Positions 194-62,566 of a stretch of DNA of 64,000 bases are shown here, one piece after another. Origin of the DNA: Boothiomyces macroporosus (lineage: Eukaryota; Chytridiomycota; Chytridiomycetes; Rhizophydiales; Terramycetaceae); the NCBI GenBank assembly GCA_027604185.1, contig JADGKB010000035.1:54847-118846 (forward strand). Direction: 5' to 3'. Position 1 is the stretch's first letter. Every line of letters starts with the position of its first letter. The notes under the pieces are model-generated. The model ran no database searches and had not been told where the DNA came from. It saw only the letters and a list, made by a program, of their open reading frames with translations. The translations under genes were made by a program, and so were the position numbers.

Positions 194-3100
194 TTATTTT
201 GTAGAGTCTAAGAGGTACTGAATTGCTTCCTGCACATTAAAGGAATATATTTCAAGAGCGTTTAATGCTTGTTCTGCTATTAAGAATAATTACCTTTAGA
301 GAAGCCTAAAGCTATAATTTGTGTCACTTCTGGAATATCTGGTGAGTTTGTGCGTTGAGGTGGTGGTTGGTTAAATGCATTTGAAAAATCTACAGATCCG
401 AATGGATCACCAGTGTCTAATTTCGCATTTGCAGGTGGCGGAGCTCCAAATATATCGTCAAGGTTTGGTGTTGGGGCAGGGAATGCAGGGACACTTGATG
501 CTGGTGGGAAGGCTGGTGTGTTCCCAAATGCTTCATTAAAATCACCAAAGCTAGACTCTTTTGGCGGATTAGAAGCAAAGAACGTATTTCCAGTCTTTGA
601 AGGTGAAATTGGAGCAAAGGAAGTATCAAAGGTGAATTTGGAATCAAAATCTCTGGTATTAGGTCTTTGGACTGTGCCAGCACTACCAGACATGATCGAC
701 CCATCCACAGGTGGTTTTAAATCTTTAGTTTGGAATGCTTTGGCCATTTCAGCTGCCATGTCCAGACTATCTACAGAATTTCCTCTTGCCATGTTTGACT
801 GTTTCAAGCTTGAAACCTTTTCTGTGGGTGGAAAAGCTGCATCAAAGTCGGACATGGAAGATTTTGCAGGCAGTGATTTAGGGGTTTGAACTGTTGCTGA
901 ATTCAAAGTTGGGGTAGCTTCAGGGGCAGATTTTGTACTTTTGGTAGGAGAATTTTGTTCTTTCATGAGGTCATTAGAAGGACTTTTTTTTGGTTTGTTT
1001 GATTCAAGAAGGGAATCTAAATCCATACTATCTCGTTTGACTTTTTCGGCTTTATCTACATTCTTGCTGGTATTGGAAAATAGCGAGCTTGCAGATTTTG
1101 GTCCTTCATCAAGTTTCTTCTCCATGCCAGTAGTGATCGGCTTTAAAGGTTCAGTTTCAACTGAGGTTATTGGCCGAGCTGGTTTTGTATCAGCAGATGG
1201 AATAGCAGGAGGGGGACTATTTGGAAATTCAATATCAGAAACCATGGCAGATATTTGTTCTTTTTCCAAAGCCAGGTTGGTCATTGAGTTGGAGAGCATC
1301 TCGGATTTCTTTAGTTGACTTTGTCGTTCTTTCTCTGCTTGAGCAATTTTTTCTCTTTCCCTGACAATAATAGCTTCTTGCACAGAGGCTTGTTGTTCCA
1401 ACTGAATTACACGTTTGCGTTCCTGTTCCAGCTTATGAGTTTCTTGCTCGAGATTATATTTCACTTGCTTGTAGTCTTGTTGGGTGCTTTCCAACAATTT
1501 CATGTTGACATCAACAAAAGTCTGTTGTTGTTTTACTTCTTGCGCAATCTTGTTTGCTTCAGCTCTCATCATGTTAGCTTCATCTGTTAGTTCAGATATT
1601 TTCTTTTTGTATTCGGCAATATCAGTCTGCTGCTTTTCTTTTTGCTTGGTTAAATTTTCCATTTCAGCTTTTACCATTTTCAATGCTTCCTTATATTGAT
1701 TTAATTCCGCTTCAGCTATTTGCAAAGTTTGGGATTCGCGATAAATGATTGCTTGAGTATCCCTAACCAGTTCTAAATCAGCTTCATAGGTTGCACGCAA
1801 CTGCGATAATTCAACACTGATTGCATTACGTTTTTCTGTTACTGATTTATACTCTGCTTCAACAGCCTCTCTTTTCTTTTTGAGCTCCTCTGCGCTAGGT
1901 TTTAAATCCATTAATTGCGCTTCAAATACTTCCAATTCTTGCTTCCTTACACTTAGGGTTTGTTCTCGTAAAGCAATTTCTTTTAGTTCCAAATTATTAG
2001 TAGGGGCAGTGAAAGAGGTACCCAACGGTCCTAAAGCAGGAACTGAAGATGGAAGACCACCTAGGTCAGCGATGGGATTGAATTTCTTTTCAAGCATCGG
2101 AGTATTCTTTTGTAAAGTTGGCGATAATGGATTAAAAGGTAAACTTGCAGGTGCCAAAGCTGGAGTGCTTAATCCAGAAATGGAAGGAGTACTTGGCGCA
2201 ATAGGATCGGAAAGAGAAAGTAAATCCTGTACTGGTGCAGTGACTTTTGGTCCAGTTGTAGGAATTTGAGCGCCAGTCATACGTTTCTTGATCAAGTGCA
2301 TTGCAGAGATAAATCCATCTTTGTTGATAAACCCAGACTTTTTAGTATCAACTAGCTCCCAAATTTGAGCCAGTTCATTTGGAGGCAGCTTTGATTTTAA
2401 AAAGAATGAAGAGCAATCTCCACCTAAGTTAAAATAGTTTAACCATTTAATAATCCTTTCTTTTCCTTGTCTAGAGTATCGAAAAACCCAGAATATTGAG
2501 ATTTCTCCAAGTCTGTAATCCCTGCTTGCAAGTTGGTGGCAGAAGGTAAAGGTAAGGCGGTAAATGGCAAATTGGCAGAATCAACCGTATTGGATCTAAC
2601 TGGTGTTTTTTCAGGTAGTAATGAACCTGGAGTAGGCAGTAGTATCCCAGGTGGTAATGTGGCAGGCACTCCAGTAAGAGTTCCTACTTTGATTCTGGCC
2701 AAGATGACCATTCCAACAATAAACTGATTCACATTAAATTTCCCATCCTTATCAATCAGCGTCCACACTTTTCCCAATGTTTCCGGAGACAGATTTGACT
2801 TTACGAAGATATCTTTGACTTGCGTTGCGTTTAAATGACCATCCACTGGACTACATTAACAAAAAGTACCCAGCTTGATCAAAAAACATTGTAAATTTCT
2901 GTCTTTCATCCGCAGTAATTGTAAATTCCTTTTCTTCATCATTAAATCCTTTGAATATGGGTAGCGGTGTAGGAAGCGATAAACTAGATGCTGCGATAGT
3001 ACCACCAATTTGACCTAAACTGACATATTTCATTGCTTTGTTGAAATCCGCTTGCTTTAGATATCCCTTCTTGTCTTCGTCGACCAGCTCCCATATCAAG

Positions 3101-3268
3101 GAGAGTTTGGATTGCTCCAACCCTGATTTGGTAAGCAGAGACACCATTTTCTGAGGGGTAATAATCCCCAAGTTTTCTGTATCCAATTGCTTGAACCATT
3201 TTGCATATTGTGCTAGTTCTGTTGGAGTGAAATCTAAGTTAATTCGACGGCGTACTTTCTTGATTCAT
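194..3268 (-). CDS. EDE1: Ede1/Eps15-like endocytic scaffold with three EH domains and a UBA
   Basis: Early endocytic adaptor that binds NPF-motif adaptors and ubiquitinated cargo at the plasma membrane. Four introns are placed at 3234-3255, 2851-2869, 2424-2443 and about 262-281 (22, 19, 20, 20 nt); splicing gives 997 residues. The first exon is only 13 nt. Three EH domains occupy roughly residues 1-75, 105-175 and 230-310, each with EF-hand-like loops. A long Glu/Lys/Gln coiled coil follows (about 380-620), then a Pro/Ser-rich region with DPFG and NPP pieces, and a C-terminal UBA starting near the GFSK motif. Domain order matches Ede1/Eps15. The last intron has two in-frame acceptors (17 or 20 nt); the 20-nt choice leaves a better branch-to-acceptor spacing. 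The stop TAA lies inside AATAAA. Confidence 0.93.
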
Positions 3269-3326
3269 TCCGTAATGAGGTTGAGAAATTCTGGCAGCCA
3301 CAAGTGATACAAACTTAATCAGCATA

Positions 3327-3406: not shown

Positions 3407-3503
3407 AATTAATTATCATTTGACTGCCCTGGTTTACTACAGAGAAATATTCTTGTAGAGTCCACAAAAGAGAGTACTAGTCTCAATTTGAGACTAACCC
3501 AAA

Positions 3504-5653: not shown

Positions 5654-7304
5654 ATGATTCAATCTGTAATCTTTGGGGGAATAAGTTCCCTGTCGATCGA
5701 CTACCTTCTGACTGGTAATACTATATTAATTATAGGTGGAATCAAGAGTATACAATCCTAACATAGATGCGATATTTTGTTTATTCATTCTTACTTACAG
5801 ATCCCAACACAAACAAGTATATTCAACCATTGGAAAAAACAGACTGTATTTCCTTTACCAGATGAACCACTGGTACTTGCTTCATTTGATTTATCCGGAA
5901 TTTGACTTGTACTCGCTCGTATTTCATCTTGGCTTGGCACTTGCCTACGGAATTTATAGAATACAAAAAGACGTTTTAAAATTCCCAACGTTGTGCGGGA
6001 GACTATTCTTTAAAACAAAGAGCATTTGTATTCTAGCGCTTGAAACTGGATTAAAATTCAGTTCTGTTTATACAGTTGGATTCACTCTGTTAAACATTTT
6101 TTTCTATCTGCAAGTTCATTATTAATCATAGGGCTGGATATCAATTTAGTTTGTACAAGATTTCCAAAATGTTTCTATCAGGAGTGAGCAAGGTTTGTAT
6201 TTGGCAGATTTACCATGACCTGATTTCGCTGTATTTCACTTTACCAAAGGACACAATCTCTTTAAATATCAGCAATGATCTGGAAAAGATGAAATTAAAG
6301 GGATACGATAAAGTAACTGCTATTAACATCAGTACATGGCATTCTTCAACTTTTACCAGAAATGTTTCAACAACAAAGTCTATAGGGATATGATTTTCAG
6401 CGACATAAATTCTACTGAAACTAATTGGCAAAAAGTAGTAAACTGTTGTTTGTCTCTTGTTGATGAGCTCTCATTGAATATCGAACTAGATCTCAAAGTA
6501 TTTCGTGTTAATGTTAGGAAAAGAAGCCTGAAAAAGCTCCACCAAAGATTGTTGAAAAAAAGGAATTGATTGAACAAAGAGGCATATACAAAAGGAAAAA
6601 TACACTTGTGCAAGACGCAATGAAGTATTTAGTCGAGCAAGAGCCGGAACTAGAGCAACTACCAGTTCAATTAGCAGGTACATTCATTTTAATCAAGCCC
6701 CAGCGGAAGGTCCGACTGTGCCATCTGTATTCCTTCCTGAAAAGAAGGATGAAGAAGTGCCAAAGGCTGTTGTAAAGAAACAGCAAAAATCACCAGACTT
6801 CCTGGATGCAGTGTCTGACATGGTAAATATTTTGCCTTTGGGAAAGCATATCACAGCAGATACCATTGAGAGGGAAACTAAGCTAATGTTCAAAGATCTT
6901 CAGCTGCTGACTTGGTCTACCCAAGGTTTTTCATTTTAATATCAGCTTTAATCAAGTTATGTAACAGTGTAGATCAAGATAAATATGCCCAAGTACATCA
7001 ATCAATACCAAAAATACTCAAATCATTATTACATTTACATACAATGACTGAGAAATATATCCAGTCCAAAAAGAAATCTACAAAACCAGTAACAAATGAC
7101 ATTGATTTGGATTTCTTGCCTCCTGCACTAGTAAAAAGAAAAAAGACTGGCTGGTGTGTAATTCATCAAAGCGCTTGTGCAATCCGCTTACTCGAAAACA
7201 GCATATATCAGATCATTCGCAACTTTTACCAAGATATCGGGCGTATGGAAATCGATGATGAAGTAGTAGACAAACTCGAGTTATTTATGGATATGCGACA
7301 ATAA
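5654..7304 (+). CDS. NDC1: Ndc1 transmembrane nucleoporin (one frame joint unresolved)
   Basis: Membrane anchor of the nuclear pore and spindle pole body. Introns at 5715-5735, 5748-5766, 6313-6332, 6498-6517, 6678-6697 and 6926-6945 (21, 19, 20, 20, 20, 20 nt). The N-terminal half has several hydrophobic segments. Then come the fungal Ndc1 blocks: an IYHDLISLYFTLP stretch, a YMAFFNFYQ segment, IFSD with a downstream NWQKVV, and near the C-terminus the DKYAQVHQSIPKIL block of the Ndc1 tail. Between about 6097 and 6160 the frames do not join with a normal intron. Either a 46-nt intron (6114-6159) is used, giving 494 residues, or one T is extra in the T7 run at 6097-6103 next to an 18-nt intron (6114-6131). 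The stop is inside AATAAA and 5 bp from the next gene's stop. Confidence 0.8.
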
Positions 7305-7309
7305 AGCCT

Positions 7310-8557
7310 TTATTTCAACTTTGCGATACGTAAATCTTTAGCGATTTGTTTAGCACTCCGGGTATGATTGTTCAATACACCGTAAAAGGATTTAGTGGCA
7401 TCGCTATCAAAGTATTTCTCTAGCAATTCTTTACCGCCCGGATGCTGATCCTTAAACTTTGACACGTCCAAGACAAACTCATCGATAAGTATCAAATCGT
7501 TATACTTGGCTTCTTTTTGAAATTGTTTCATTGTCCACTCTGGTAGCTTTGATTCATCAGTCCAAATCAATTGGCGCTTCTTTTTCTCTAGTTCTTCTTC
7601 CCAAACAGAAATACGAGCTAGATTAGTTGAGAAAACCTTTTTGGACTACTTGATCTTCAATTGATACTAGTCCGTAAGCTTGGCCCAGACACCAATTCAA
7701 ATTGATCAGCCATTTGGTAGGGTCCCAGTGGAACCATCTTATTCCATTTCGATAATCACAGGGAAATTCGTGATGGTAATTATGGTGCCCTTCGCCCATA
7801 GTGAATAATGCCAATAACAGATTGCCTCTACTAGTATTTTCAGTTGAATACTCTTGCGAACCAAATTCATGTGCCCAAGAATTAATAAACCAAGTGCAGT
7901 GCCAGATTACTATTTTTGAAAGGAATACGCCGTAAAACAGACCACCTAGGATATCATTCCATAGCATTGAAAGACAAGCTGGAAGGATGATGTTGGAAAG
8001 TATCAAGATGGGAGTGTAGTATTCATGTTGAAGTCTCACTACAAAATCACTATCAAGGTCAGTCTTTCCAATCCACTTTAATCTAGTGTACTGTTGTTTT
8101 TCCAACATCCATCCTAGATGAGAGTACCAAAATCCTCGTTTGGCATTGTATGGATCTCGTTAAAAACAGCCTACCATGATCTGTATCAGTGAATCGATGG
8201 TGCAAGCGATGTCTTAATGACCACCATTTAATTGAGCCTTGAAACGCCAAGGTTCCCATGAATGCAAGTATAATTCGAAGTAACGGAGTAGCTTTGTAGG
8301 AATTATGCGACCATAATCGATGATATCCCTATATTAGGACCGTATACCATAGTAATCCTATTATGAGTTAAAACATACCCCAATTCACCTAATGTTATGA
8401 TTGCCAAGCATAGTGCGACCGAATATGCTGTAGGTGTGACGAAGAATAATCCATACAAGGCTAGAGTGTGGAATAGCGTAAGAATAGTAATGATTTCCCA
8501 CCAAGGCTTGGCTGTAGATTTCACGTCAGATCCCATTAAATGACAAGTTATTTGCAT
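7310..8557 (-). CDS. OLE1: Acyl-CoA delta-9 desaturase with C-terminal cytochrome b5
   Basis: ER membrane enzyme that makes oleic/palmitoleic acid using electrons from its own cytochrome b5 domain. 389 residues after introns 8358-8378, 8329-8347, 8156-8174 and 7618-7636 (21, 19, 19, 19 nt). The three histidine boxes are intact: HRLWSH, HRLHH and HNYHH. Hydrophobic segments flank them. The b5 domain has the heme-binding HPGG and a second His in NNHTRSA. The first two introns enclose a 10-nt exon (8348-8357), without which the [13 protein letters not shown] block cannot be read. Domain order is that of fungal Ole1. The stop lies in AATAAA, so the mRNA 3' end must overlap the NDC1 3' end. Confidence 0.96.
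8348..8357 (-). other. 10-nt microexon of OLE1
   Basis: Ten bases (GATTACTATG on the minus strand) lie between a 21-nt and a 19-nt intron. They code for the end of Gly plus Ile-Thr-Met immediately before the first histidine box. The neighbouring residues are invariant in fungal desaturases, so the exon is well supported. Confidence 0.88.
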
Positions 8558-14890: not shown

Positions 14891-16027
14891 ATGTCTTTAT
14901 TGCAAGAAATATTGGATAAATTACATGCGGCTAGAGCAGAGTTACAATCGCCTGGAACCTACGAAGGATTGCACCGAGAAGCTACAGGTTAGCCAATGTT
15001 AATTTAGGAATCTTCCCAGTCAACTACATGATTGACGGTGCCAAATTCGATTTGACTTCAATTCACAGCCAAAACTTTCAAACCACTCATTCGTTGGAAT
15101 GGGGATCAAACCCACAAAAACCAGCCTCCTACAATTTTGGAGCAATGTTCGGAACTAATCAAATGGCTTTACATGGAATGGTCGACGGCCAAGGTAATTT
15201 AAGAGCTCGTGGTCAATACAACTGGATTGAACAAACTGAAGAGCAACAAGAACAAAAATTCTCTTCCATTTCAAAAATACAAGCGCAGTTAGCCACCAAT
15301 TCACCTCAATCAGCTGTTGTTTTGGAACAAGAAATTACTGGAAAGGATTACTCTATTTCATTGAAAGCAGTAAATGCAAACCCAGCAGATGTCCCGCCAT
15401 CATGGGCACCTGGACAGCCTTCAGTAACTGGTATTTTCTCTGCATCTTATTTGCAATCTATTACTAAATCAATTGCACTTGGTGTAGAATGGACTTTACA
15501 AAGACCATACCCAGATACTATTGAGCCAGCCACCTCCTTTGCTTTTAGATATGCGCCTCCACCTTCTGCTTTACCATTACCAACCACCCTTCCAGCCGGA
15601 TCCACCGAATCACCTTACCAACCAGTTAATCCAAAGGATCCTACTGAAATATTTACTGCAACCTATGTACCAGCTGCTGGTATGTTACACTCTTCATACT
15701 GGAGAAAATTGAACCAACGCTTGGAAGTTGGCACTGAAATCCAATGTCTCTTGACCCCATTCTCAAAGGGTGAGCCTGGCCGCAGAGAAGGTAAATAGTG
15801 TTTAAATTTAGCCGTCGCTTCTATTGGTTTCAAGTTAGATACAGTATACGCTACCATCCGCGCTGCAGTTGAAACTACTGGTAAAATCGCAACTGTTCTT
15901 GAAGAAAAAATTGCCCCAGGGCTTTCCTTCCAAGTAAGCAATATCTAACAAATAGTTGAACGGTGAAATCGATTATGCCAAAGGCGGTGCTGGTCGTGTC
16001 GGGTTTGGGTTCACATTTGAACAATAA
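14891..16027 (+). CDS. TOM40: Tom40, mitochondrial outer-membrane import channel
   Basis: 357 residues after introns 14988-15007, 15791-15811 and 15934-15955 (20, 21, 22 nt). Family blocks are clear: YEGLHREAT, GIFPVNYMIDGAKFDL, THSLEWGS, and a C-terminal strand that ends in the GRVGFGFTFEQ beta-signal. Tom40 is the 19-stranded porin-like barrel through which nearly all nuclear-coded mitochondrial proteins pass. Length matches fungal Tom40 (about 350-390). The second intron contains an early in-frame stop, so the open frame without splicing is truncated. Confidence 0.95.
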
Positions 16028-18127: not shown

Positions 18128-19548
18128 TTATCTAATTACTCGAAGAGTGTGGATTAACCACATAGCAACAGTTAACAAAGTCAACGACCCACCCTGATGG
18201 GCAGCGGCTAGCGGAATTGGAACAAAGTAGATCAATGTTGAAATTCCAAGTCCCACTTGAATCGCGCATACAGCCATCATCAAATTGCTTGCTATTCTAG
18301 TGTGTCTGCTAGTTCTAATAGTCTTGGAGGCTAAAAATAGAGTTGTAACTAATGAGGCTGTGGTAACGGCTAAAACTCTGTGATTGAACTGTACTGCAGA
18401 AGGGTTCTTGATTAAATTTTCCCACCTATCATAAGCTGAAATTTACCACTCCATTGGCGCAGGGTTTTGGAAAGATTTGGTAGAGTATGCCCACATATCA
18501 GAAGGAACGAAACCTTCTCCCATGTACGGGAATTCATTGTAAATCAGACCTGCATCCAATCCAGCTACCCACGCTCCGGAAATAGCGGTAGCAAAAATAA
18601 ATCCAGCAACTACAACAGAGAACCACTTTAGTTTTGTATGCCGGACTTCCTTTAAAAACGGAGACATGTTTTTAAACTCGTTTTGTTTTAAAATTTCAAA
18701 ACCAGTTGTAAGCATGGTCATATAAATTACAAATGCAGAAGCCAAGTGCGCAGAGAGCCAAAAGTGGTTTACTCTTGGGACTTGCTTATTTTCAATAATA
18801 TCGTCTCCCAGTCCAGATTTAACCTACTATTAGAATTGTGCAACCATAAACCACCCTAGTACACCCTGCGACCCAATCATAGTAGCAACAAGCAAAGATC
18901 GTGCTCTAATCTTTTTGGTCATATAACCCCGAGAAGCAAAGTAAAGACCAGGAATGATGAAAAATAACCCGATTCTACGTTAATAAAGATGTACGCTCTA
19001 CCCCACATTCTGTGCGCCCATTCAAAGTAAAAAATAGTTTTGAATTCATCCAAGCTAATGTTATGATTGAGTAATTTGTATTCCGGAAACTGTTTGTACT
19101 TTTCAAATTCTTCAATCCATTCCTCTTCATTGATTGGGGGTTTCATTCCTTTAATTAGATTCCATTCGACTATAGATAATCCGCTTTCAGTGAGTCGAGT
19201 TACTCCGCCAAGGATTACTATTCCAAAAACAAGAAATGCAGAGGTGAGATACCAGTAAGCAACAATTCGCTTTGAGGGTTCATTCTCTTCAGTCTTTTCA
19301 AATTTAGTTTCAGCCTTCAATTCCTCTGGTTTCTTTATTTCAATGGTGGTTGAAAGTTTTCTTGGGCTGAAAACCTCGTTCCATTTGGATTCAAAGCTAG
19401 TCAGTCGTTTAGCGAACGATATATTTCTATTAAATAGCGGCCGGTATTGAGTTGGTTTGAGTAATTTCAATGGGGAATATAATCCCAATCTCTTTAGTAG
19501 CATTGGCAAGCTGTTTTCAAAGTGAAAAAATTTAGGGTTATGCCGCAT
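18128..19548 (-). CDS. COX15: Cox15, heme A synthase
   Basis: Inner-membrane enzyme that oxidises heme O to heme A for cytochrome oxidase. 452 residues after introns 18975-18994, 18824-18844 and 18426-18446 (20, 21, 21 nt). A long N-terminus with Arg-rich presequence is followed by TM1 with [14 protein letters not shown], the [10 protein letters not shown] heme-ligand region, [12 protein letters not shown] (rebuilt by splicing), the AHL block with its His, a FNHRVLA block and the terminal HQGGSLTLL block. All four conserved histidines can be found. Length is normal for fungal Cox15. Confidence 0.95.
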
Positions 19549-32677: not shown

Positions 32678-32682
32678 TAAAA

Positions 32683-33024: not shown

Positions 33025-33098
33025 ACCAAACTAAATAATTTGCTGATTTTATACTTTATTAAACTTTGAAGGCTGTGCTTTTATGCAGAAAGTTAAAT

Positions 33099-35421: not shown

Positions 35422-35481
35422 ACTAGATTTTTGTTATTTCAGATAACGTCCCGGATATTATACTCCAAGTCTACGTTAATA

Positions 35482-44035: not shown

Positions 44036-45365
44036 ATGTTTGGTCAACCAGCAGCAAATACTTTTGGAGCTAATACACAAGGAAATTCTTTATTTGGACA
44101 ATCGAATACCAATACCACAGGCGCATTTGGAGGAACAACGCAGACAGGAGGGTTTGGCCAACCAACAACTGGAACTACTTTTGGACAGCCTGCAACTGGA
44201 ACTACTTTTGGACAGCCTGCAACTGGAACTACCTTTGGACAGCCTGCAACTGGAACTACTTTTGGACAGCCGGCAAATAATACCTTTGGCCAACCCACTT
44301 CAAACACATTTGGAAACCAGACTACTACCGGATTTGGAGCAAGCACATTTGGTCAGAATAAACCAACTCTGACACTAAACACGGGTGTCAATCAACCAAA
44401 ACCAACAACATCACTATTTGGAAATACTCAAACCAATACTGGATTTGGACAAAACAAGACTGGTTTTGGTCAGTCTAACATCTTTGGAGGCCAACCAGCT
44501 CAGCAAACCAATATGTTTGGTCAAAGCACCTTTGGGCAACAGCAGAATCAATTCCAAAGCCAAACTTTTCAAAATAACAGTACTAATTTCTAATCTAGAT
44601 CAACAAGCCCAGGCGTTAGATCAAGTTAAAGCTGCTGCGAGTGCTTTTGATCCTTCAAGTCCTGCCTGTGTGTTTAAAGTACTTTTAGTTAATGTAGCAT
44701 TACTTTTACAACATGGTGCATCAAAGCGAAGTTGGCTTGTATCAACCAAGTCCTAACGAGGACAGGTCACTATATGAACAGGCTCAACAACAAAACCCAG
44801 ATCCCACATGGTAAGTTGGTTTAATAGTAGTATGGTTCCTGTGCTAGCAGTTGGGTTTGACGGACTCAAAAAAAGAAGTGAGATCCAAAATGAGCAATTG
44901 GCAACGCACAAAGAGAAACTAGCAGAAATACAAGAAAAAATAGTCAAGCTCGAACAAACAAGAACAATCTCAACTATAATCAAGATTGAAGAATACAAGC
45001 GAAAACACCGCCAATTGGTGCACAAAGTTTTCCAATTGCTCAAATCTGTTCAATTGTTGAGAAACAAAGGGTATATCCTTAGACCTGAGGAAGAAGCGCT
45101 AATCACTCGCCTCATCAGCATGGATAGAGATTTGGCTAAACCAAGTGTATTTAGAGGCAGAATCAATGAAATATGGGCTCAAGTTCAACAATTCAAAGAC
45201 GTTGAACCTGTATCTGTTTCAATAGATCCGCAGTCAATAAAGCCTCTCTATTCCGCGTTGGAAGGTATGGGCAAAGGCTTAATGGAACTTACCAACGTAT
45301 GCAGAGAAGATGATTCTACGTTGTCGCAGATCGAGAGGGCATACATGGAAGCCTCTCTGAAATAA
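44036..45365 (+). CDS. NUP57: FG-nucleoporin Nup54/Nup57
   Basis: 423 residues after introns 44580-44598, 44679-44697 and 44811-44830 (19, 19, 20 nt). Residues 1-180 are FG/GLFG-type repeats including four near-identical TGTTFGQPA units. The coiled-coil half starts ALDQVKAAASAFDPSSPACVFK, continues HYFYNMV (the Nup54 C-F-Y-Y block rebuilt by splicing), VPVLAVGFDGLKKR, and ends in the alpha-helical Nup54 domain. It forms the central channel complex with Nsp1 and Nup49/58. I use ATG 44036 (MFGQPAAN) rather than 44012. The stop TAA is inside AATAAA, only 24 bp from the next start. Confidence 0.92.
44168..44275 (+). repeat. 27-bp tandem repeat coding FG repeats in Nup54
   Basis: Four head-to-tail 27-bp units starting at 44168, 44195, 44222 and 44249, each coding for nine residues ending in FGQPA. 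Near identity at the DNA level shows recent expansion. Confidence 0.85.
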
Positions 45366-45389: not shown

Positions 45390-47100
45390 ATGGGAGATCG
45401 AATACATTTTGGTTCACTAGAAAATACCGCCAGGAACGAAGGAACGGGAGCCAAATTATTAGACAAATATGTACATGCAATTAATCTAGAATTCTGAAAG
45501 CGAAGGAGTGAGCCTAGAAGACCTGGTGGATATGTCTCAACCAGCAAAAATAGTGGATCAAGCAATTCTCCACCAACTAGAGCATAAAAATGTTGCGCGA
45601 ACTGTAGATGTACCAACCAATGATAACAAAGTACGCAATCGGCTGAGAGAACTGGAAGAACCAATGACATTATTTGGCGAAGGGGTAAAAAATAGTAATA
45701 CTAGAGTAAAGAAAGAAGAGAGAGATTAAAAAACATTCTTGCGGATAAATTGCTAAAGGGAGAATCAATTGAATTTGATGATTCATCAGATGAAGATGTT
45801 GGACAATCAGAAGAATATTTTACATATGGAGAGGAGGAACTAAGAAATGCAAGATTGGATATCCTTGATTTTTCAATTAAACATGCCAAAGAAAGACTTG
45901 AACAGCACAAAAAGGAATTGGAAATACCGTTTGTGGAAAGGAAGCAACTGCGACACGAATTCTATACCGGACTACAAGATTTTCAGACAAAGAGTTTGCA
46001 GTTTGGAGATGATAGACCGATTGGCTATTGCCAGTTTTCCCCAAACTCCAAGCTGCTAGCCACAACATCTTGGGCAGGAAATATAAAACTTTGGTCTGTG
46101 CCAGAGTCAGAAGAAGTTTATGTTCTAAAAGGTCACAAAGATAGAGTCAGCAGTCTGGATTTTCACCCGAATGCTACCATATCTCAATCGCCTGGTTCGG
46201 TTAATATTGCTTCTGGAGGTGTAGATGGAGAAGTGCAGTTATGGGCATTAAATAAAGAAGAACCTATTGGAAAACTGGATGGCCACGATATGAGAGTAGC
46301 TAGAGTTGCTTTTCATCCTTCCGGAAGATATATTGGTACAGCATGGTATCTTTATACATAACATAGCTTTGACACTACCTGGAGATTGTGGGATGCGGAA
46401 ACCCGAAAGACGCTGTTATTGCAAGAAGGGCATTCAAGAGAGGTGTTTGCTATAGGATTTCAGAATGATGGTGCACTTGTAGCGACTGGGTAAATGCAAA
46501 CTAATTTAGTGGCTACGATGCAATTGGAAGAGTTTGGGATCTGCGAACTGGACGGTCAATTATGGTGCTTAAATCCCACATAAAGCCAATCTTGGCTTTG
46601 AACTGGTCTCCAAATGGGTATCAACTAGCGACAGGCGGGATGGAGTAAGTTTTGTTGACATTAGCAATTCCATTAAAGTTTGGGACGTTAGACAAGCAGC
46701 CTGTATATATACCATTCCTGCCCATAAAAATGTAGTCACTCAAGTTAAATATTGGTCTGCATCAGAATATTACGAATCGAAAAAGTTTGACGATTGGACA
46801 TTAGCAAACATGGAAATGGAGATTGATGAACATCATGATATTGACGATACTCAAATACAAAAAAGAAATCTTTTGAATGGGAGTTTCCTTGTCAGTAGTT
46901 CTTATGATGGATCATGTAGATTGTGGACAGATGGTGACTACAAACCACTCAAGTCTCTTTCTGGTCTAGAAGGCAAAGTTATGTCTGCTGACGTGAGCCC
47001 CGATTGTCAGTATATTGCTACAAGTTTGTATGATCGAACGTTCAAATTATATTCCCGGCAGTCGTTTACAATTACGGAAGATAAACCCGATAAACAGTAG
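45390..47100 (+). CDS. PRP4: U4/U6 snRNP protein Prp4 (WD40)
   Basis: 536 residues after five introns: 45471-45489, 45685-45704, 46346-46366, 46490-46509 and 46645-46664 (19, 20, 21, 20, 20 nt). The N-terminal Prp4 motif [18 protein letters not shown] joined to [12 protein letters not shown] is diagnostic. Seven WD repeats follow, e.g. [16 protein letters not shown], and FDTTWRLWD restored by splicing. Prp4 (PRPF4) holds the U4/U6 di-snRNP. It starts 24 bp after the Nup54 stop on the same strand. An AATAAA at about 47118 abuts the convergent gene's stop. Confidence 0.95.
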
Positions 47101-48805: not shown

Positions 48806-51800
48806 ATGAAATGCAAAATTGTAGCCAAAGTGCTATACGACTATGAAGCACAAACGGATGAAGAATTGACGATAAAAGAAGGAGGAATTCTATTGATCAC
48901 TGATGATACTGACCAGGATTGGTGGACTGCCTATGAGCGTCCTCTAGATACTTTCCAAGAAGGCCGAACCGGTCTCGTTCCTTTAACTTATGTAGAAGAA
49001 GTAAAATGCATTTGATGATAGGCAACTCCAATTTGTATAGTGAATGCCATATACGACTATGATGCACAAACTGATGAGGAAATTACCATCAGAGAAGGAG
49101 ATTTAATTAGAATTTACGAAAAGGTTGATGCGGATTGGTGGTTTGGAAAGCATGACCATGATGTCGGTCTCGTACCGTCGACATATGTGGAAGAAGTATC
49201 AAATAATTAATATAGCAACATGATAGTGGACCTGCACCGATACCACCACCAGCGGTAGACCAAGCAGATGCTGAAGCACAAAAGAACCAGCTGCTCAATG
49301 CATTAGGTGGGTTAGGCTTTAAAAAGACGGAAACAAAGGAACAACCATCTGGAATTATTTATGGACCAGATGATATTCCATACTATGCTTTTGTTGATAT
49401 TGACAAGAAAAAGAAAAAGAACAGCGTGAAAGGATTGCTTGGGGTTTCCGCCAAAGAAAAGAAGATTTACTTTTTATACGATGTACGCTAACCTAACGAT
49501 AGACAAAGGAAATCATTTACACTATACCAATCAAAAGCGTCAAAAAATATTCAGAAAAGAAAACAAAGTTGACCATTCAATTGGAAAGTGATACCAAGGA
49601 ATATGAAGCGCAACACAAATCTGAAGTATTGCTGATCATTTCCCAGATCGAAATGGCAATGTCTGCACCAGATAAACAACCTTCTCCTGTAGCCCCTATG
49701 CCCTCTTTACCAACCCCAACGCCCACCCCTCCAGCAGTTGCTAATCCTGCAAGCTCAATTGCAAAAGTGGCCATTGCACTGTACGACTACGAACCAGTAG
49801 AAAGCGGTGAACTGGCAATTGTTGAAAATGATATGCTTATTGTTTTAGATAATTCCGATCCAGACTGGTGGCTGGTGAAGCATTTGAAAAAGCATGGTGA
49901 AGGCTTGGTACCAAAGACTTATGTTGAGGTAATTTGTAATTAATATAGTTACAAACTCCTGGAGTAGCTCGCAAACCACAAGAAGATGCTAAAGAAAAAG
50001 AAAGACAGGAGTTGGAGCGCAAAAGACAAGAGGAACTTCGACGCGAAGAAATGGAGAGGGAAGAAGAACGTCAACGAGAGGAAAGAAGGAGAGCTGAGGA
50101 GCAGCGCAAGCAAGAAGAAAAAAGGAGAGAGGAAGAAAGGCAAAGAGAAGAAGAAAGAAGGAAAGAGGAGGAGCGAAAAGCTGCTATTCCACAGGTTCCA
50201 ACCAGACCTAAATTGGATACGCCTTCTTTACCAACCAGGCCTACTGAAGTTCCAACACTACCAACCAGACCGAAAGTTGAGGCAGTTGCTGTGCCAACCT
50301 TGCCTACTAGACCAGTTGCTAATGTGCCAACCATTCCTAAACGGCCAGAAATTCCAGAATCCAGACCTACTGTTCCAGTTTCTAGACCTAAAGTTGAAAG
50401 TGCTCCAGAAAAGAAAGATTTCCCAGATCCCGCTAAAATTAGAGATTGGACAGATAAAACAGGGAAATTCACAGTTAAGGCTGCATATCACGGAATTTCA
50501 GATAACAAAGTTCAGTTGCACAAGGAAAATGGTGTCATAATTGGTGTACCTTTTGAAAAATTGGACGACACTTCCCTCGATTATTTAAGATCTATTCCTG
50601 GAAATGAAAAGTACGATTTTGGCTCTAAACTGAATGCTCCATTACCCCCACAACAGAAAAAGGCTTCCAGTACCAACCTTCTTTCTCCTGTCGATAATTC
50701 TGCTCACACATTCAATGGATTCGATTGGAAAGACTGGCTGGTAAAAGCTGGTGTAGCATCTAGCGATGCTTCTACTTATGCACAAAAGTTTGTTGATCAA
50801 AGAATGGACTCTTCTATTCTATCCGACATTGATAGGGATGCCTTAAGAGCAATGGGAATCACCGAAGGAGATATTATTAGGATCCGAAAGGCTGCAAACC
50901 TCCCTCAAATATCTGCACAAGTACGTGCAAAGACTGCTCAGAATGAAGCTGAGGCTCAGGCCCGTAACTTGCAGATACTAAATGCAAGAGGACAATCCGC
51001 TAAGCAAATCGCAGACGACGAAGCCCTTGCGAGAGAGTTACAGAATCAGGAATATGCCAGTCATGGAAGGCCCTCTAATGTCAACAAAGTTAACCCTGCA
51101 ACGTTGTTTGAAGCTGGTAATTTGCTCAAAGCTGGAAATAAATCCCCTACAAATGCTCGTGCCGCCACAAACACAACGTCAAACTTTAACAAACCTCCAT
51201 CTACTCAGCATGTTTCCAATGCTTCATCCTTGGGGCTTTCATCCAATGTCAGTTCTTCAGCGAATAATGATCCATGGGGAGCGTTTTCTGGACCTGCTAA
51301 CCCAAGTCCCCAGACAAATACCAGCAGTGCGCATGATCCTTTCCTGAAAGCCAAACAGCAGCAGGAGGAAACTCAAAAAACTTTGGAAACTGCTCGTTTA
51401 GCTATTCAAAAGGCAAATGAACAAGCCAAACAAGCTGCAGCATTGGAGGAGCAGAACCGTTTGGCAAAACAAAGCGAACTAGCCCTTCAGAAAGCTCAAG
51501 AAACTGCAAAACAAGCAATGTTAATCCAACAGCAAGCTCACCAGAAACTAATGGCAGCCCAGCAAGGAGGTATTTCACAGCCTATTCTCCCTATGCAAAC
51601 TATTCCAATGCAGCCTCTACAACCTATGCCAATGCAAACAATCAACCCAGCGCAATTTGCACCTCGTCCATTAGTAGCACCTCTTATTCCTACGCCATCG
51701 GCCAATCCTACACCAGGCTTTGTACCAACAGGAGCTCTTGCTGGAAATGCTTTCAACTCTATGAATCCTACTATGATGACTCCACAACAAACTGGAATCG

Positions 51801-52493
51801 CCACCAAAGTTACCTCAACAGGAGTTGTAAAGCCTAGTTGGAGCAATGCTAGTAAGATTGAAATAACCTTAGCGCCTAATCAACCGTTTGGAAATGTACA
51901 ACAGTCTAATGATCCTTATGCTGCCTTTAAAGATGCTAATCCCAACGCACCTTCCATTTTTTCATCTCCCAGCATGGCATCTTCAGGTTGAAACTTTTTA
52001 ACATTCAGGTGCACTTACACCAAATATGACTGGAAACAGTGGAAATTTTGCTCAAAACCAGTTAGGAAATACATTTAGCAATACTAGGTCATCTTTCCAT
52101 CAGCCAGGATTCCAAAATCAAATGCCTACCGGTCCAGCTATGCAGATGATGAATCAGCCAACTGGAATGATGAATCAGCCAACGGGAATGATGAACAGAC
52201 CAATGATGAGTCAACCATCTGGTATGGGAATGATGCCACAAGGAGGGATGATGAATCCTGGAATGGGCATGACCCAAGGAATGATGAACCCAAACATGGG
52301 CATGATGAATCAGGGCATGGGAATGAATCCAAACATGACTGGAATGAATCAAAATATGACCGGAATGCCAATGAACAACCAAATGAATCCACAGATGATG
52401 TCTGGTAGCTTCAACCAGTCATCCATGTTCCCTAACCAAAACTACCCAAATAACTTTAACCAATCCAATCAGGGCTATAATCAATACCGCTAA
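48806..52493 (+). CDS. SLA1: Sla1, endocytic actin-patch adaptor
   Basis: 1194 residues after introns 49001-49021, 49196-49215, 49483-49502, 49929-49948 and 51987-52008 (21, 20, 20, 20, 22 nt). Order: SH3-1 (VLYDYEAQTDEEL, DWWTAY), SH3-2 (AIYDYDAQTDEEI, DWWFG), a Sla1-specific PH-like block, SH3-3 (ALYDYEPVESGEL, DWWLV), Arg/Glu coiled region, SHD1 (RDWTDKTGKFTVKAAYHG), SHD2/SAM (FDWKDWLVKAGV to GITEGDIIRIRKA), then Gln/Ala helices and a Met/Asn/Gly/Gln-rich tail. Domain boundaries coincide with intron positions for the SH3s. Sla1 binds NPF-type cargo, clathrin and Las17. Its full architecture is fungal, so it is strong taxonomic evidence. Confidence 0.96.
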
Positions 52494-52553: not shown

Positions 52554-53731
52554 TTAATCCAATTCTGCAGGAATGGGCAGGAGTGTCTCTGCAGTATTGT
52601 ACAAATGATCTACGAAGCCAACAAAGTCGCTCATTTGTACCATTCTAATAGTCAAGCTCTGAAAATTAGCTAATCTTACCTTGACGTCAACTTTACCCAT
52701 TTCTTTATGGTTTAATCGCTTGATAGACTCTCTCACAGGTACCATTACAGCATTTCTGCATAATTCTTTCAAGTCGGCGTTAGAGTATCCATCAGTAATT
52801 GAAGCAAGATAATCAAAGTCAAACCCATCTTCTAGCCCTACTTTTTTCAAAATCAGTTCAAGGACCTTTCTTCTTTGGGCTTTATCTGGTAATTGAACAG
52901 AGAATCTTTTAGGCATTCTTCGAAGAATAGCTTTATCAAGATCGTTTGGTCTATTAGTAGCTCCAAGTATCATAATTTGAGTTGCTTCTCCGGTATTCAA
53001 ACCATCCCAGAGGGTCATGAACTCTGCTTTCATCATTGAAGTTGCTTCATGATCATTTGATTTTCGTTCACGCAAGAAGCAGTCGATTTCATCTAGAATA
53101 AGGAGTATATACCTATAAAGATAATTGTTGGCTGCAACTTTTTTGCTAGTGAAAACAATGCGTTCACTAATTTTTGAGATTCACCAAACCACTTGTCAGT
53201 CCTACGATTAGGATAATTTACATTGTGGAAACATGCAGGTTAATGAATGTAGCTCCAGACTCCTTTGCCAATGCCTTTGCTGTCATTGTTTTTCCACTAT
53301 GTAAACTATTGCTTACCATCCCTGTTGTTAGTTATAATTACTGGTGGCCCATATAGTAATACACCACGAGGTGCTCCTAGTAATCCCGATACTTGTTGAA
53401 ACAATTCCGGATACACTAATGGATAGATTACTGTCTCTCTTAGAGAGTCAATAATTGGTTCAAGACCTCCGATATCACCAAACGTAACAGTCAAGTCTTC
53501 CGGCCAAATAATTTCGCTAGCAATCATTTCTTCATGTTCCGTCAATTCCAAATCGCTCTTTCCCATTTTACTCATTATTTTTGAGCTCTTTATTTTTGCC
53601 AAGTCCTTCTTTTTCCTCTGTGGATCCATTGTATTGAGAATGTATTTAATTCCATAGTACAGACATACTTGAGTGCAGGCCAATAGGGCAATGTCAAATA
53701 TTAGTTTTTTCGATTGCGGAGTTAGTGACAT
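52554..53731 (-). CDS. MSP1: Msp1/ATAD1 AAA ATPase, outer mitochondrial membrane extractase
   Basis: 358 residues after five introns: 53322-53341, 53297-53316, 53202-53221, 53093-53112 (20 nt each) and 52659-52679 (21 nt). An N-terminal membrane anchor ([19 protein letters not shown]) precedes the [21 protein letters not shown] block, Walker [28 protein letters not shown], Walker B IIFIDEID, and [19 protein letters not shown]. Walker A exists only if a 5-nt exon between the first two introns is included. Msp1 pulls mislocalised tail-anchored proteins from the membrane. The last intron is 3n and stop-free; retention would add seven residues. Start chosen at 53731 (MSLTPQSKK). Confidence 0.95.
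53317..53321 (-). other. 5-nt microexon of MSP1
   Basis: GGATG on the minus strand, flanked by two 20-nt introns with GTA...AG ends and TAAC/TTAC branch-like sites. Joined to its neighbours it codes Gly plus two bases of Cys in GPPGCGKT. Skipping it or reading through destroys the Walker A motif and the frame. Confidence 0.9.
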
Positions 53732-53973: not shown

Positions 53974-54795
53974 ATGACGCAAATGGAAAAGCTTGAGCAT
54001 GGAACATACCCCATAAAAATAGGAAATTCCTTTATCGATGGAACAGATACCGCCCTATTATTTCGCTGTACTCTTCCTTTAATCTAGATTCGTTTATACC
54101 TTCATCTGCCAACACCGAAGAGCAAGCAAGACTAATGAATGTAAGGAATCACGGAGAAGGATCCCACTGGGCATTGCAGCTGCAGAACACTTCGGTACAG
54201 CAACTCTAATCCAGGGAATTGAATCAGAATCACATATCTTGCAAGGTGTGCCAGCAACAGTAAAGGATGTTGATTGTGTTTTGATATTCAATCCAGTGGA
54301 ACAATGTTTCACCTTAGAAAAAGTCGGAAGCAGTTTTCAATTCCAAAAGAGTAACACTAGAGCTAGCAGAACGAGACATGTGTCGCCCTCATTGAAACCA
54401 AGTTCACCAAAGAAATTAACCTCTCCATCAATGAAACCAGTTATCAGTACTAAAGCTCGTGCTCAAAAAAAGAAATCTGCTGCTGAGCCAAAGAAGGAAA
54501 GGGAAGACATTCTATCTACTTTGCACTCGCCACCACCTATTCAGGAGCAGGAGGATAACCAAGGAGATGATGATTACGGAATTGAGGATATTCTTGATGA
54601 TTTAGAAAAGGATATGGAAAGTAAACAAGATTCGGTTATTTTAGAAGAAGGAATGAGTAGTAGTGATGACGAAAAAGAGATTATATCACCACCGAAAATA
54701 GGATCCGGCCCAAGGTCATTATTTGGAGTTGGCGAAGAGCCTGATGGTAAGTTTAGTTGACCGTAGAGAGCGGATCTGCCAGCGGCGAAGATTAA
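53974..54795 (+). CDS. ELL-associated factor (EAF) family transcription elongation protein
   Basis: 253 residues after introns 54068-54087, 54195-54214 and 54747-54766 (20 nt each). The N-terminal EAF domain includes HGTYPIKIGNSF, LLFRYSFIPSS (joined by splicing) and DVDCVLIFNPVEQCFTLEKV, the family's best-conserved stretch. The rest is Ser/Pro/Lys-rich and then acidic (DDYGIEDILDDLEKD, SSSDDEKE), as expected for EAF, a partner of ELL that stimulates Pol II elongation. The last exon is short and ends in SGSASGED. Confidence 0.85.
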
Positions 54796-57980: not shown

Positions 57981-58006
57981 GTAAATTTGCCATCTTTGAA
58001 TAAAGT

Positions 58007-59742
58007 TTATTGAAGCTCCACATAGTTTGCAGGGACTAGGGTTAGTTAATACTTACATAGACCAGTTGAACCTTTACAGGTGCCCATCCACCAATCATCA
58101 GATACAAACTCAATATTTGTGATCACATCGTCAGTTACAAATGTCAACTCGTTTGGTTCTGCTGCGTCATAGTCATATAATGCTACTGCTTGTTTTTGTG
58201 CTGGGACAGCTTGAGCTGGAGGTGGGGCTGGTGCTGGAACATGTTCAGGCTCTCTGGGTGGTAAAGAAACAGGTTGAGGGGCTGCTTGGGTTACTTCAAC
58301 ATAGTTTGCTGGGAATAAGCCAGTTTGCCCATGAGAGTTGGTTCCTTGCCACCATCCTTCATCAATCTCCAAGATATTCTTGATAATTTCACCTTCTGCT
58401 AATGGAATTTCATTAGATTCATCTATATCAATTTAAATTTACCTGGTGTATAATCGTATAGCGCAACAGCTTGCAATCCAGCTGAAGGAGTGTCATCAAC
58501 TCTCAAATTATTGATTCTTTCTTGAACTTTTCTGTCTTCTTCCTGTTGAGCTAGTCTCTGTTCTTCTTGCTTTTGTTGTTCAGCGCGTCTCTGTTGTTCA
58601 CGCTGTTCTTGCAGTCTTTGTTCCTGCAGTCTCTGTTGTTCACGTTGTTCTTGCAGTCTTTGTTGCTCACGGTTTTCATTTGCTTTTCTTCTTTCTTCCT
58701 CGTGCTGTCTCTTAAGCTGAGCTTCTTCCTCTTCTTGTTGTCTTTGATGGGTAAGTCTCTCTTCTTGTTGGCGTTGCAAAGCCAGTTTTTCTTCTTGTTG
58801 TCTTTGAACAGACAATCTACCTTCTACAGGTTGTGTAGGTGGAGTGTAAGCAACTTTAGCAGTCCCTTCATCGTAAAGTGGTTTAGGCGCAAGTTTAATT
58901 GGTTGATATGAGGAAGTAACAGGTGGTTGACTAAAGTTTGCAACTTTACTAGCAACACTTGAAGTAACTGGCGGTGCAGGTTGAGTAGCAGCGGGCTGAT
59001 TGAATGTTTCTCCAAATCTGGATGAAAGAGGTTTCGGGTTTGTTTTGATTGGTTGGTAAGTTGATCCTACTGATTCGTACAAGGCTTTTGGTGATTCGTC
59101 TGTAGTTGGAGGTTTAACTGGAGCAGGTGTAGGTGCAACCGGCGCAGGCTTAACTGGTGCAAATGTATGTGGAGCAGATGCAACAGGAGGTTTTACAGGT
59201 TGTACAAGAGTAGGTTTTGGCGCAAAGCTCTGAGGAGTGTAGCTATTGGTTTTAGGAGGTACAAAAGCAGGTGTCTTTGGTGGAGGCTTATTTACAGATG
59301 GATTGGCAACATTTCCCTGAACTGAATACTTTGCGCCAGATGAATCCCTAACCTTTCCCATAATAAATGCCGGTTCAACATCGTCTTCACTCCTCGCATT
59401 AATATGAACATGGAATCCCTTAAAGTACTGTGCAACATCGTTAACATGGATGTTAAAGAAACCCTTGCGAGCAACAGGCACTCCCTCCCCACACCAAGAA
59501 ATCAAAACGAATTTTGGCAATCCAGATAGCTGTTCGAATACTCTTGCAAATGCATATTGGATTTTACTGCCTTCAAATTCGTCTTTAAGCTCTTCTAAAC
59601 CACCATCTCCCGTTCCAGTAACTTTTAATTCCTGTCCATGTCCGTAGCTGAACATGGCCCAGTTGGTGGGATTTGCCTGGTCGAGGATGCTGTTATAAGC
59701 TTGTTGCAGTTCCGCAGAGTGTGTAGAGAAATTGATTGACAT
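58007..59742 (-). CDS. ABP1: Abp1/drebrin-like actin-binding protein
   Basis: 564 residues after introns 58423-58442 and 58036-58056 (20, 21 nt). An N-terminal ADF-H domain starts [16 protein letters not shown] and contains [14 protein letters not shown]. The middle is Pro/Thr/Ala-rich with YQPIK motifs, then an Arg/Glu/Gln coiled region. Two SH3 domains end the protein: [19 protein letters not shown] (split by the first intron) with [10 protein letters not shown], and [13 protein letters not shown] with [10 protein letters not shown] completed by the second intron. Abp1 couples actin patches to endocytic scaffolds such as those coded at EDE1 and SLA1 here. The stop lies in AATAAA. Confidence 0.95.
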
Positions 59743-59865
59743 TTTCTTGATTCGAAAAATAGCTGTGTTACAGCCAAGCAAAGAGGGGCAGGAACTAAAT
59801 GGAAGGGAAATAATTCGGAAGAGTTTATACGAGCGGATACTCGCGGGTCAAGGTTAAATGATATA

Positions 59866-60849: not shown

Positions 60850-61127
60850 GAAAAATAATTTGGAAACCAGCGGTTGGTATCTATACAGATTTTATGGATA
60901 GCGCAACAGATTCAGACTGGCTTAACCAGCCCATTTATTGTATCAAATCGCCGTCATATCTTTCAAATTCCTAGCTTGGCGAGTAATCCCAAATCCATGT
61001 TGAGTAATAAAAAGGACAGAGCTATAATCGAATTGAATGGCTCGTCCTTTTAAAAGTAAAATTTGCTGGCTCGATGGCATGTCTGTCAACGAGAAAAACC
61101 CTTGCTCGATTTTTTTAAAATCTCGAA

Positions 61128-62566
61128 ATGAGTCAACCAGCAGAAAAAATGGAAAAGGACTGGTCTGTAGAAGCAGCCGAAGTAATCGCCAAGAGCACAG
61201 CTCTCGCCAAAGTAAATGTATTTAACAGCAGACAAATTTAGGGCAAGCGATCGAGCAATTGTCTCTCATTGAAAAACAAACCAGAACTTCAGCGGATTTG
61301 GCTTCCAACACAAAGGTCTTGCTTGCGATTGTTGAACTCACATACCAAGCCAAAGATTACAAATTATTGAACGAAAATATCGTTCTGCTTACAAAAAAGA
61401 GAGCGCTGTTGAAACAAGCTGTAACAACCATGATTCAAAAAGTAATGACTTTTGTCGATGAAATTACGGATATGAAGATTAAATTGGAATTGATTGACAC
61501 TCTAAGAACTGTAACTGACGGCAAAGTAATCCATTTTTAACCAGATCTTTGTTGAAGTTGAACGGGCTCGATTAACAAGAACGCTTGTGAAATTCAAAGA
61601 AGCCGAAGGAAAGATTGTTGAAGCAGCAGATCTTTTACAAGAATTGCAAGTAGAAACTTATGGCTCAATGGAAAAGCGAGAAAAAACCGATTTCATTCTT
61701 GAACAGTTCCGTCTTTGTTTGGCAAAGAAAGATTACACTCGCGCTCAGATTATCAGCAGAAAGATTTCAATCAAATTCTTTGAAGATAAGGAATACCATG
61801 ATCTCAAAGTCAGATTCTACAAGCTGATGATTGTTCATTCTTTACATGGAAATGAATATCTCAAGACTTGCAAGAACTATAGAAGTTTATACGACACTCC
61901 ACTTGTAAAGGAAGATGAAAAGCAATGGAAAGAGGTATTTATCCCTAACCTAGGCATTGGCAAACATTGTTTTCTTTATTGTCTTGTCACCTTTTGATCA
62001 CGAGCAGTCTGATTTGATTCATAGAATTTACCAAGATCCAAATTTGAAGAAATTAGCGCTGCACAGGGAACTCTTGAAATGTTTCATTACTAATGAATTG
62101 ATGAGATGGCCAAAAATCGAAGAAGTTTACGGTCCTACTTTGAAAGCAACTACAGTGTTTACTCAAGCCAGCGAAGAAGGAAAGAAGAGATATCAGGACC
62201 TACACAAGCGCGTAATTGAACATGTAATTGCCATTGACAATAGAATATTCGCATAATATCCAAGTATTATAAACGTATAACCCTCAAGAAACTCACTACA
62301 CTCTTGGACTTGCCTCTCCAAGTAATTCTGCTTAATGTTAGGATGCAGAAAACTTTTTGTCCGATTTAGTAGTAAAAAAGACTATTTACGCCCGCGTTGA
62401 CAGGATTTCTGGAATTGTTACTTTTGAAAAGAAAAAGGACGCCAACACTGTCTTGAACGAATGGTCCAGCACCATCCACTCCCTGTTGGATTTGATTGTG
62501 AAAACTAATCACTTGATCATGAAGGAGGAAATGGTCCACACTATTACTAAACAAATTACTGAATAA
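61128..62566 (+). CDS. RPN5: 26S proteasome lid subunit Rpn5
   Basis: 446 residues after introns 61212-61231, 61526-61544, 61935-61953, 62224-62243 and 62322-62341 (20, 19, 19, 20, 20 nt). Landmarks: IEKQTRTSADL, FVEVERARLTRTLV, QIISRKISIKFF, SPFDHEQSDLIHRI, and the PCI domain with NIRIISKYYKRITLKKL (joined by splicing), LLDLPLQ and VVKKTIYARVDRISGIV. Length matches yeast Rpn5 (445). The first intron has two in-frame acceptors (17 or 20 nt); the 20-nt one is taken. The stop lies in AATAAA. Confidence 0.96.

Follow-up and report, generated by a model that had tools for sequence, protein, structure and literature searches.

The question raised by this locus is whether the segments of about 20 nucleotides (nt) that interrupt its genes are spliceosomal introns of a single size, and whether the same holds for the rest of the genome. 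The window, the whole stretch of 64 kb that was analysed (C35:54847-118846), belongs to the chytrid Boothiomyces macroporosus (Terramycetaceae, Rhizophydiales), a free-living saprotroph; the assembly behind it comprises 15.2 Mb in 216 contigs, and a peptidase encoded in the window shares 98% identity with a Boothiomyces sp. JEL0838 protein. A search with an rRNA primer pattern gave no match. A first-pass annotation had placed 89 introns in 31 genes of the window, all of 19-22 nt with a mode of 20 nt. The sample studied here covers 264 kb on 21 contigs: the 64-kb window, plus 200 kb taken from a further 20 contigs. The observation of uniform 19-22-nt introns is confirmed, and the length peak arises without any motif or length prior. 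With a probability of about 0.95, these are ordinary major-class (U2-type) spliceosomal introns, shortened genome-wide to one tight module of 19-22 nt.

194..62566, unstranded: stretch with 87 modelled introns of 19-22 nt, spread over 32 genes (gene model and spacing histogram)

The peak is already visible in the raw spacing of motifs. Intervals of the form GTA...TAAY...AG, counted on both strands before any gene model was made, number 26, 35, 13 and 8 at 19, 20, 21 and 22 nt in the window, as compared to means of 4.0, 2.4, 3.0 and 3.0 in shuffled sequence, with 2 intervals at 18 nt and 0 at 23 nt just off the peak. The corresponding numbers for the other 20 contigs are 67, 75, 50 and 20, on a background that averages 12.8 per length over 23-399 nt (standard deviation 3.4, maximum 23), and no second peak was present in these 200 kb up to 399 nt.

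Frame-based gene finding gave the same picture. A gene finder that used codon usage only was too weak, and a phased Markov coding model was used instead; its self-training with GT-AG introns may have introduced a slight bias towards GT-AG. With GT..AG ends as the only demand and an equal cost for all lengths up to 200 nt, 49 of the 120 introns called were of 19-22 nt, whereas six decoy dinucleotide pairs yielded 3-7 introns of that size under the same flat cost; at 31-200 nt GT-AG showed no excess over the decoys in this motif-free run (60 vs 80-94). When the flat-cost run was confined to 12-30 nt, 88 of 110 introns fell at 19-22 nt. Addition of the learned motif with flat lengths gave 165 introns of 19-22 nt among 203, one at 18 and two at 23 nt. 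The remaining 35 calls exceeded 24 nt; many run across a pair of short introns together with the exon that separates them, two are tandem arrays (see below), and the rest, judged by eye, had no discoverable support as long introns. The final gene model, which combines the learned motif with a learned length prior, contains 312 introns in 264 kb, 305 of them at 19-22 nt. Its 87 window introns, distributed as 22, 49, 11 and 5 over 19, 20, 21 and 22 nt, lie in 32 of 42 gene models: the earlier count was close but not exact, and the length range and mode were borne out. Elsewhere a few calls of 18, 23 and 24 nt occur. Introns are carried by 98 of the 139 complete gene models in the sample, and the density of 1.17 introns per kb of sequence extrapolates to about 17,850 (about 18,000) genome-wide.

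Could the uniformity be an artefact of prediction, with a substantial class of longer introns being missed? The final model indeed penalises other lengths and a 48-nt intron exists (see below), yet such an artefact is quite unlikely in view of the absence of an excess over decoys in the motif-free run, the visible mergers among the long calls and the single peak in the raw spacing. Within the 264-kb sample the length distribution peaks below 25 nt and has no main longer class, as is characteristic of genomes with ultra-short uniform introns, and the peak in 20 other contigs carries the uniformity claimed at first pass far beyond the window.

The splice signals emerged together with the lengths. 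In the flat run at 12-30 nt the 5' side read AAG|GTAATT and the 3' end TAG; GTA started 79 of the 88 introns of 19-22 nt, and TAAY was present in 63 of the 88 as compared to 4 of the 22 introns of other lengths. At position +5, T is most common (41/88) and G is infrequent (14/88). Among 310 introns of 18-24 nt, GTA is found at the start of 283 and GTT at the start of 22, while the branch motif is TAAY in 232, a variant in 76 (TGAY, TTAY, TCAY or TAAA in 73 of them) and absent in two. The prevalence of GTA over GTT and of TAAC or TAAT near the AG was thus described correctly at the outset. In 277 of 308 introns the putative branch A follows the first G at a distance of 13 or 14 nt, and in 274 of 308 it precedes the last G by 5 or 6 nt, in a search limited to 12-16 nt from the 5' side and 3-8 nt from the 3' side. 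With TAAY alone and the 5' side unlimited, 210 of 233 candidate branch A residues are at 13 or 14 nt, in agreement with the distance of about 12-14 nt proposed before.

These signals point to the major spliceosome. The donor consensus matches U1 and the ends are GT-AG, the putative TAAY-type branch site is complementary to the GUAGUA of U2, and removal of the segments restores conserved protein frames, with the 5' half of NDC1 as exception. U12-type introns have an ATATCC or GTATCC donor and a TCCTTAAC branch. The emergent consensus does not match this U12-type consensus, TCCTTAAC branch included; the U12 small nuclear RNA (snRNA) itself was not searched for. The RNAs found in the assembly are U1, with the canonical 5' end ATACTTACCTG, U2, with the GTAGTA element, and U6, with ACAGAGA, seen by eye on the reverse strand. 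The two U2 copies (C80:60682-60874 and C178:9607-9797) are diverged but have the branch-recognition element in common. Three core splicing proteins were tested, U2AF65 (the large subunit of U2AF), SF1 and SF3B1. The domains of SF1 and SF3B1 score above their cut-offs, and the spliced model of U2AF65, whose gene has five introns of 19-21 nt, contains three RRM stretches. U2, SF1, U2AF and SF3B had been named earlier as the genes to inspect; U2, SF1, U2AF65 and SF3B1 are present.

It is highly improbable that the interruptions are not spliceosomal but represent sequences eliminated at the DNA level, sequencing indels or pseudogenes. Such a view could draw on the NDC1 gene, which does not close, and on the fact that the case is built on DNA sequence; it leaves the GT-AG ends and the branch-like motif at fixed spacing, the lack of a peak with decoy dinucleotides, the recurrence of the peak in the window and 20 other contigs, and the presence of U1, U2 and U6 RNAs to be explained.

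Protein comparison supported many of the junctions. All 14 spliced window proteins sent to Pfam (nine plus five, out of 32 intron-bearing models) matched families above the curated cut-off, and all three sent to a search of solved structures (PRP4, RPN5 and MSP1) matched full-length homologues.

61128..62566, plus strand: RPN5/PSMD12; introns 61212-61231, 61526-61544, 61935-61953, 62224-62243 and 62322-62341 (solved RPN5 alignment)
45390..47100, plus strand: PRP4 (U4/U6 small nuclear ribonucleoprotein); introns 45471-45489, 45685-45704, 46346-46366, 46490-46509 and 46645-46664 (solved hPrp4, deposited relatives)
52554..53731, minus strand: MSP1/ATAD1-like AAA ATPase; introns 53322-53341, 53297-53316, 53202-53221, 53093-53112 and 52659-52679 (solved homologue)
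53317..53321, minus strand: 5-nt micro-exon of the MSP1-like gene, flanked by two 20-nt introns; completes the Walker A motif

Residues 7-440 of the 446 of RPN5 align with solved RPN5 (E 1.8e-148); four of the five junctions are gapless and the first adjoins a one-residue gap. PRP4 aligns with hPrp4 (E 3.2e-136), and of its five introns the four with junctions inside the aligned part are gapless. The MSP1 protein aligns with a membrane-spanning ATPase (E 1.9e-102), again with four of five junctions gapless, the last having a two-residue gap a few residues upstream. Its Walker A motif GPPGCGKT is rebuilt only if the 5-nt exon is included.

Because the introns are so short, the deposited Boothiomyces models that were examined include truncated, fused and exon-skipped cases. 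The deposited RPN5 of JEL0866 has all five predicted junctions. The deposited RPN5 of B. macroporosus shares two of the five, has two extra residues at one more and leaves out the 26-residue exon that separates the last two; its deposited PRP4 model likewise skips an exon, of 41 residues. The deposited JEL0838 protein HDV04_000034 merges the products of what are three adjacent genes in the window (31839-35069, minus strand): an M13 peptidase, a protein of coiled-coil-like type and PIG-M, the last truncated. The truncation coincides with an intron:

32206..32225, minus strand: PIG-M intron of 20 nt; contains a TAA where the deposited JEL0838 protein ends (Pfam Mannosyl_trans on the spliced model)
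31834..31852, minus strand: PIG-M intron of 19 nt, placed by eye; the gene model terminated within this intron

In Globomyces sp. JEL0801 the RPN5 protein has a nine-residue insertion, starting with V and ending with K, exactly at the position of intron 2. This would fit a retained intron of 27 nt and suggests that short introns may predate Boothiomyces as a genus. The deposited proteins also give a hint of a retained 21-nt intron in JEL0866.

Several points weigh against uniform U2-type introns throughout the genome. The sample is 264 kb out of 15.2 Mb, the evidence on splicing consists throughout of genomic DNA and protein comparison, and the tightness of the lengths is partly built into the final model by its motif and length prior. 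The U1 score of 68.8 bits is just under the Rfam cut-off of 69.5 bits, and the match of U2AF65 across its introns reaches 230.7 bits as compared to an NCBIfam cut-off of 310.3 bits. Agreement between the predicted junctions and the deposited annotation of the contig that holds the window is partial. For the 5' half of NDC1 (window 5654-6289) the gene finder reached no in-frame solution, the model covering Pfam positions 299-606 of 607, the C-terminal half; NDC1 had been the one frame exception at first pass, and this was reproduced. Finally, SF3B1 has an intron of 48 nt (L034:2405-2452) across whose junction the match to solved SF3B1 is gapless. This intron is apparently real, so longer introns are possible. 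It holds an internal 7-bp hairpin; looping-out is not claimed, since the stability is not above that of shuffled sequences (z -0.01).

From the DNA sequence we infer that the segments are excised from RNA, and likewise the branch nucleotide and the geometry. The module would open with GTA on its 5' side; a YTNAY-like branch site would place its A 13-14 nt past the first G, and the AG would come after another 5-6 nt. U6 pairs with the 5' site to about position +6 and U2 with the branch site from about position -5. With the A at nucleotide 14, about two bases would remain free between the U6 and U2 helices, so the module would be near the smallest that lets U6 and U2 pair separately, and the entire intron would be recognised as a single short unit (intron definition). 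The first-pass view that a branch site so close to the 5' site would strain models of U1/U2 co-occupancy is reasonable. The data suggest a splicing machinery tuned to one very small size.

How does such a machinery deal with longer insertions? Introns that abut without an exon base between them were found beyond the window, where all of these arrays are located; neither they nor the 5-nt exon had been noted at first pass. In the 200-kb sample, a METTL6-like gene contains three abutting 19-nt units, at a junction outside the part aligned with solved METTL6, and MCM7 contains abutting units of 21 and 22 nt. The genome was scanned with two strict patterns in which AG|GTA stands between two branch motifs. 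This gave 23 + 34 (57) matches as compared to 18 + 16 (34) for the reversed patterns; the 57 matches correspond to 51 loci, all of which were examined. A unit was defined as 18-23 nt with GT[AT] at the start, a branch-like motif and a final AG. Chains of at least two units are present in 27 of the 51 loci and of at least three in 10, the longest found by script having six; two of the 27 duplicate others, which leaves 25 distinct loci. If the chain is taken out as a whole, 22 of these 25 loci regain their frame (binomial P 2.3e-8 vs one third). In two of the misses, L038 and L040, there are units beyond those detected by the strict scan, with totals of five according to the gene model and eight by hand tiling, respectively. 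The eight units of L040 cover 162 nt, with one GTC and one GCA unit among them. For the third, L057, no explanation of the non-restored frame was found.

L036:443-524, L037 (minus strand), L038:424-524, L039 (minus strand), L040:380-541 and L054 (minus strand): predicted abutting trains, each made up of three to eight introns of 19-23 nt

Five trains studied at 1 kb lie within domains (MATH, TFIIH p62 PH, ING, PEX-1N and PWWP), the TFIIH p62 PH match of 25.9 bits being just under the cut-off of 27.1; one other train is in a gene without identification. L036 and L037 comprise four units each and L054 six; the eight-unit train of L040 belongs to the PWWP gene. The array data have their own counterweights. 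More than half of the 57 scan matches may be due to chance, to judge from the reversed control; the length and motifs of a unit are required by its definition, which makes the unit counts partly circular; and 24 of the 51 loci lack a chain of two, 17 of them having one unit and seven none.

We give about even odds to a spliceosome with a near-fixed ruler of 19-22 nt, which accommodates longer insertions mostly as head-to-tail trains of up to eight units, excised singly via zero-length exons, so that introns multiply and lengthen in quanta of about 20 nt. The units would be removed one by one, every removal leaving exon|GTA for the next, and with its AG|GT junctions this anatomy fits recursive splicing. 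The alternative, in which each array is one intron of about 40-160 nt that leaves in a single step and the internal units are relics or repeats, is possible but somewhat less probable. It agrees with the 48-nt SF3B1 intron, which is apparently spliced as one, with a complex intervening sequence of L. starkeyi that can leave in one or two steps (PMC7138796), and with neighbouring units in L038 that are up to 86% alike, as in simple tandem duplication; frame restoration by removal of the whole array suits it equally well. The number of long chains is more difficult to reconcile with one-step excision. In shuffled sequence, 17 of 5,997 units have a second unit directly behind them (8 of 1,335 in the real 264 kb), and from 17/5,997 per step about 0.3 loci with at least three units would be expected as compared to the 10 of 51 found, the scan itself having asked for parts of two units only. 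Further, the 102 nt of L040 called as one intron are exactly five units of 20-21 nt, one with a GTC and one with a GCA start, and of the 12,410 GT..AG intervals of 38-45 nt counted in genomic sequence, 38 can be divided into two units.

The similarity of units also bears on this choice. Mean similarities within arrays are 0.51-0.66, as compared to 0.54 (standard deviation 0.08) between arrays; the within-array mean is above the between-array mean in nine of 11 arrays, yet within one standard deviation of it in nine of 11 (L038 entered the test with four of its five units). Recent duplication therefore does not account for most of the phasing. Tandem duplication as the general origin of the arrays was rejected: it is plausible in L038 and perhaps in L009, but not in general. 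Stepwise excision is favoured because chains of at least three units are far beyond chance and because the units in nine of 11 arrays differ among themselves about as much as units taken from separate arrays. The phasing is no proof of selection on each unit, since length and motifs were partly demanded by the search.

Identical array sequences occur at two places each, C20:66652 being equal to C20:111719 and C49:16735 to C100:18330, which suggests recent segmental duplications or uncollapsed haplotypes. Two motif pairs in the window, at 21717-21757 and 49908-49948, were not called as arrays in the gene model.

Introns of 15-25 nt are known elsewhere, so the kind as such is known. Those of the Bigelowiella natans nucleomorph measure 18-21 nt. 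This range is nearly identical to that found here, in the relic nucleus of an endosymbiont as opposed to a fungal nuclear genome. Nucleomorph introns of 18 nt are cited in PMC12316389, which also gives a 23-nt intron for Trichomonas. The mikrocytids Mikrocytos mackini and Paramikrocytos have, like B. macroporosus, nuclear, uniform and extremely short introns of conserved sequence (PMC10245619). These are intracellular parasites (Rhizaria) with 224 introns of 16-17 nt and a strongly reduced spliceosome, unlike the fungus with its 19-22-nt introns, about 18,000 by extrapolation, and the tested core splicing proteins present. The earlier statement that only the Bigelowiella nucleomorph, Stentor and Paramecium are comparable was too narrow in view of the mikrocytids and Trichomonas. 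Stentor coeruleus also combines tiny introns with retention of snRNAs and most core splicing proteins, U2AF included (PMC9505925). Its introns are about 15 nt with a lariat turn of 10 nt, as compared to the 13-14 nt predicted here, so that the module of B. macroporosus would not be an absolute limit; the part of PMC9505925 that was consulted describes no abutting arrays. That the introns are far below usual fungal lengths, as first stated, is in line with the mean of 63 bp in Cryptococcus neoformans, which is termed relatively short (PMC8476143).

Fungal stwintrons and other complex introns resemble the arrays in having several U2-type introns at one site that are removed by consecutive reactions (PMC7138796). 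Stwintrons are nested, with an internal intron that interrupts or lies next to an element of the external intron and with example units of 158 and 162 nt, whereas the arrays of B. macroporosus are built from up to eight abutting, non-nested units of 19-23 nt. In these arrays no internal intron splits an external splicing element; neighbouring units meet at AG|G, each of them equipped with a separate donor, branch-like motif and acceptor. Recursive splicing shares the AG|GT junctions without exon bases (PMC5126111, PMC2773006) and is described for long animal introns, as opposed to the minimal introns that form the subunits here. In the literature on Boothiomyces, Terramyces and chytrids no title or abstract with such introns was found, most subscription papers being outside reach, and the literature searched yielded no fungal case of such lengths and no trains of abutting minimal introns.

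Ultra-short introns have so far been associated with giant ciliates, with nucleomorphs and with reduced parasites. A chytrid with an extrapolated number of about 18,000 and intact core splicing proteins, as far as tested, separates the miniaturisation of introns from genome decay and brings it into a kingdom of well-studied spliceosomes. With a fixed spacing of 13-14 plus 5-6 nt, the minimum geometry for recognition by U6 and U2 and of the 3' site becomes open to direct test, and the abutting trains and the 5-nt exon test intron definition and recursive splicing at the smallest scale. No claim is made for exons of 3 and 27 nt in L018, a gene without identification. The other window genes whose introns were compared with protein families are:

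35423..36960, minus strand: SNX8/Mvp1-like; six introns 36892-36911, 36531-36550, 36393-36412, 36254-36273, 36033-36051 and 35471-35490 (Pfam)
44036..45365, plus strand: NUP54; introns 44580-44598, 44679-44697 and 44811-44830 (Pfam)
24465..24946, minus strand: RidA-like (L-PSP); introns 24718-24737, 24632-24650 and 24548-24567 (Pfam)
7310..8536, minus strand: fatty-acid desaturase with cytochrome b5; introns 8329-8347, 8156-8174 and 7618-7636 (Pfam)
18128..19503, minus strand: COX15-like; introns 18975-18994, 18824-18844 and 18426-18446 (Pfam)
14891..16027, plus strand: Porin_3; introns 14988-15007, 15791-15811 and 15934-15955 (Pfam)
48806..52493, plus strand: SLA1-like; introns 49001-49021, 49196-49215, 49483-49502, 49929-49948 and 51987-52008 (SHD1 and SAM_4 on the unspliced main open reading frame)
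58007..59742, minus strand: ABP1-like (cofilin domain, two SH3 stretches); introns 58423-58442 and 58036-58056 (Pfam)
53974..54795, plus strand: EAF-like; introns 54068-54087, 54195-54214 and 54747-54766 (Pfam)
6289..7304, plus strand: NDC1, C-terminal half; introns 6313-6332, 6498-6517, 6678-6697 and 6926-6945 (Pfam)

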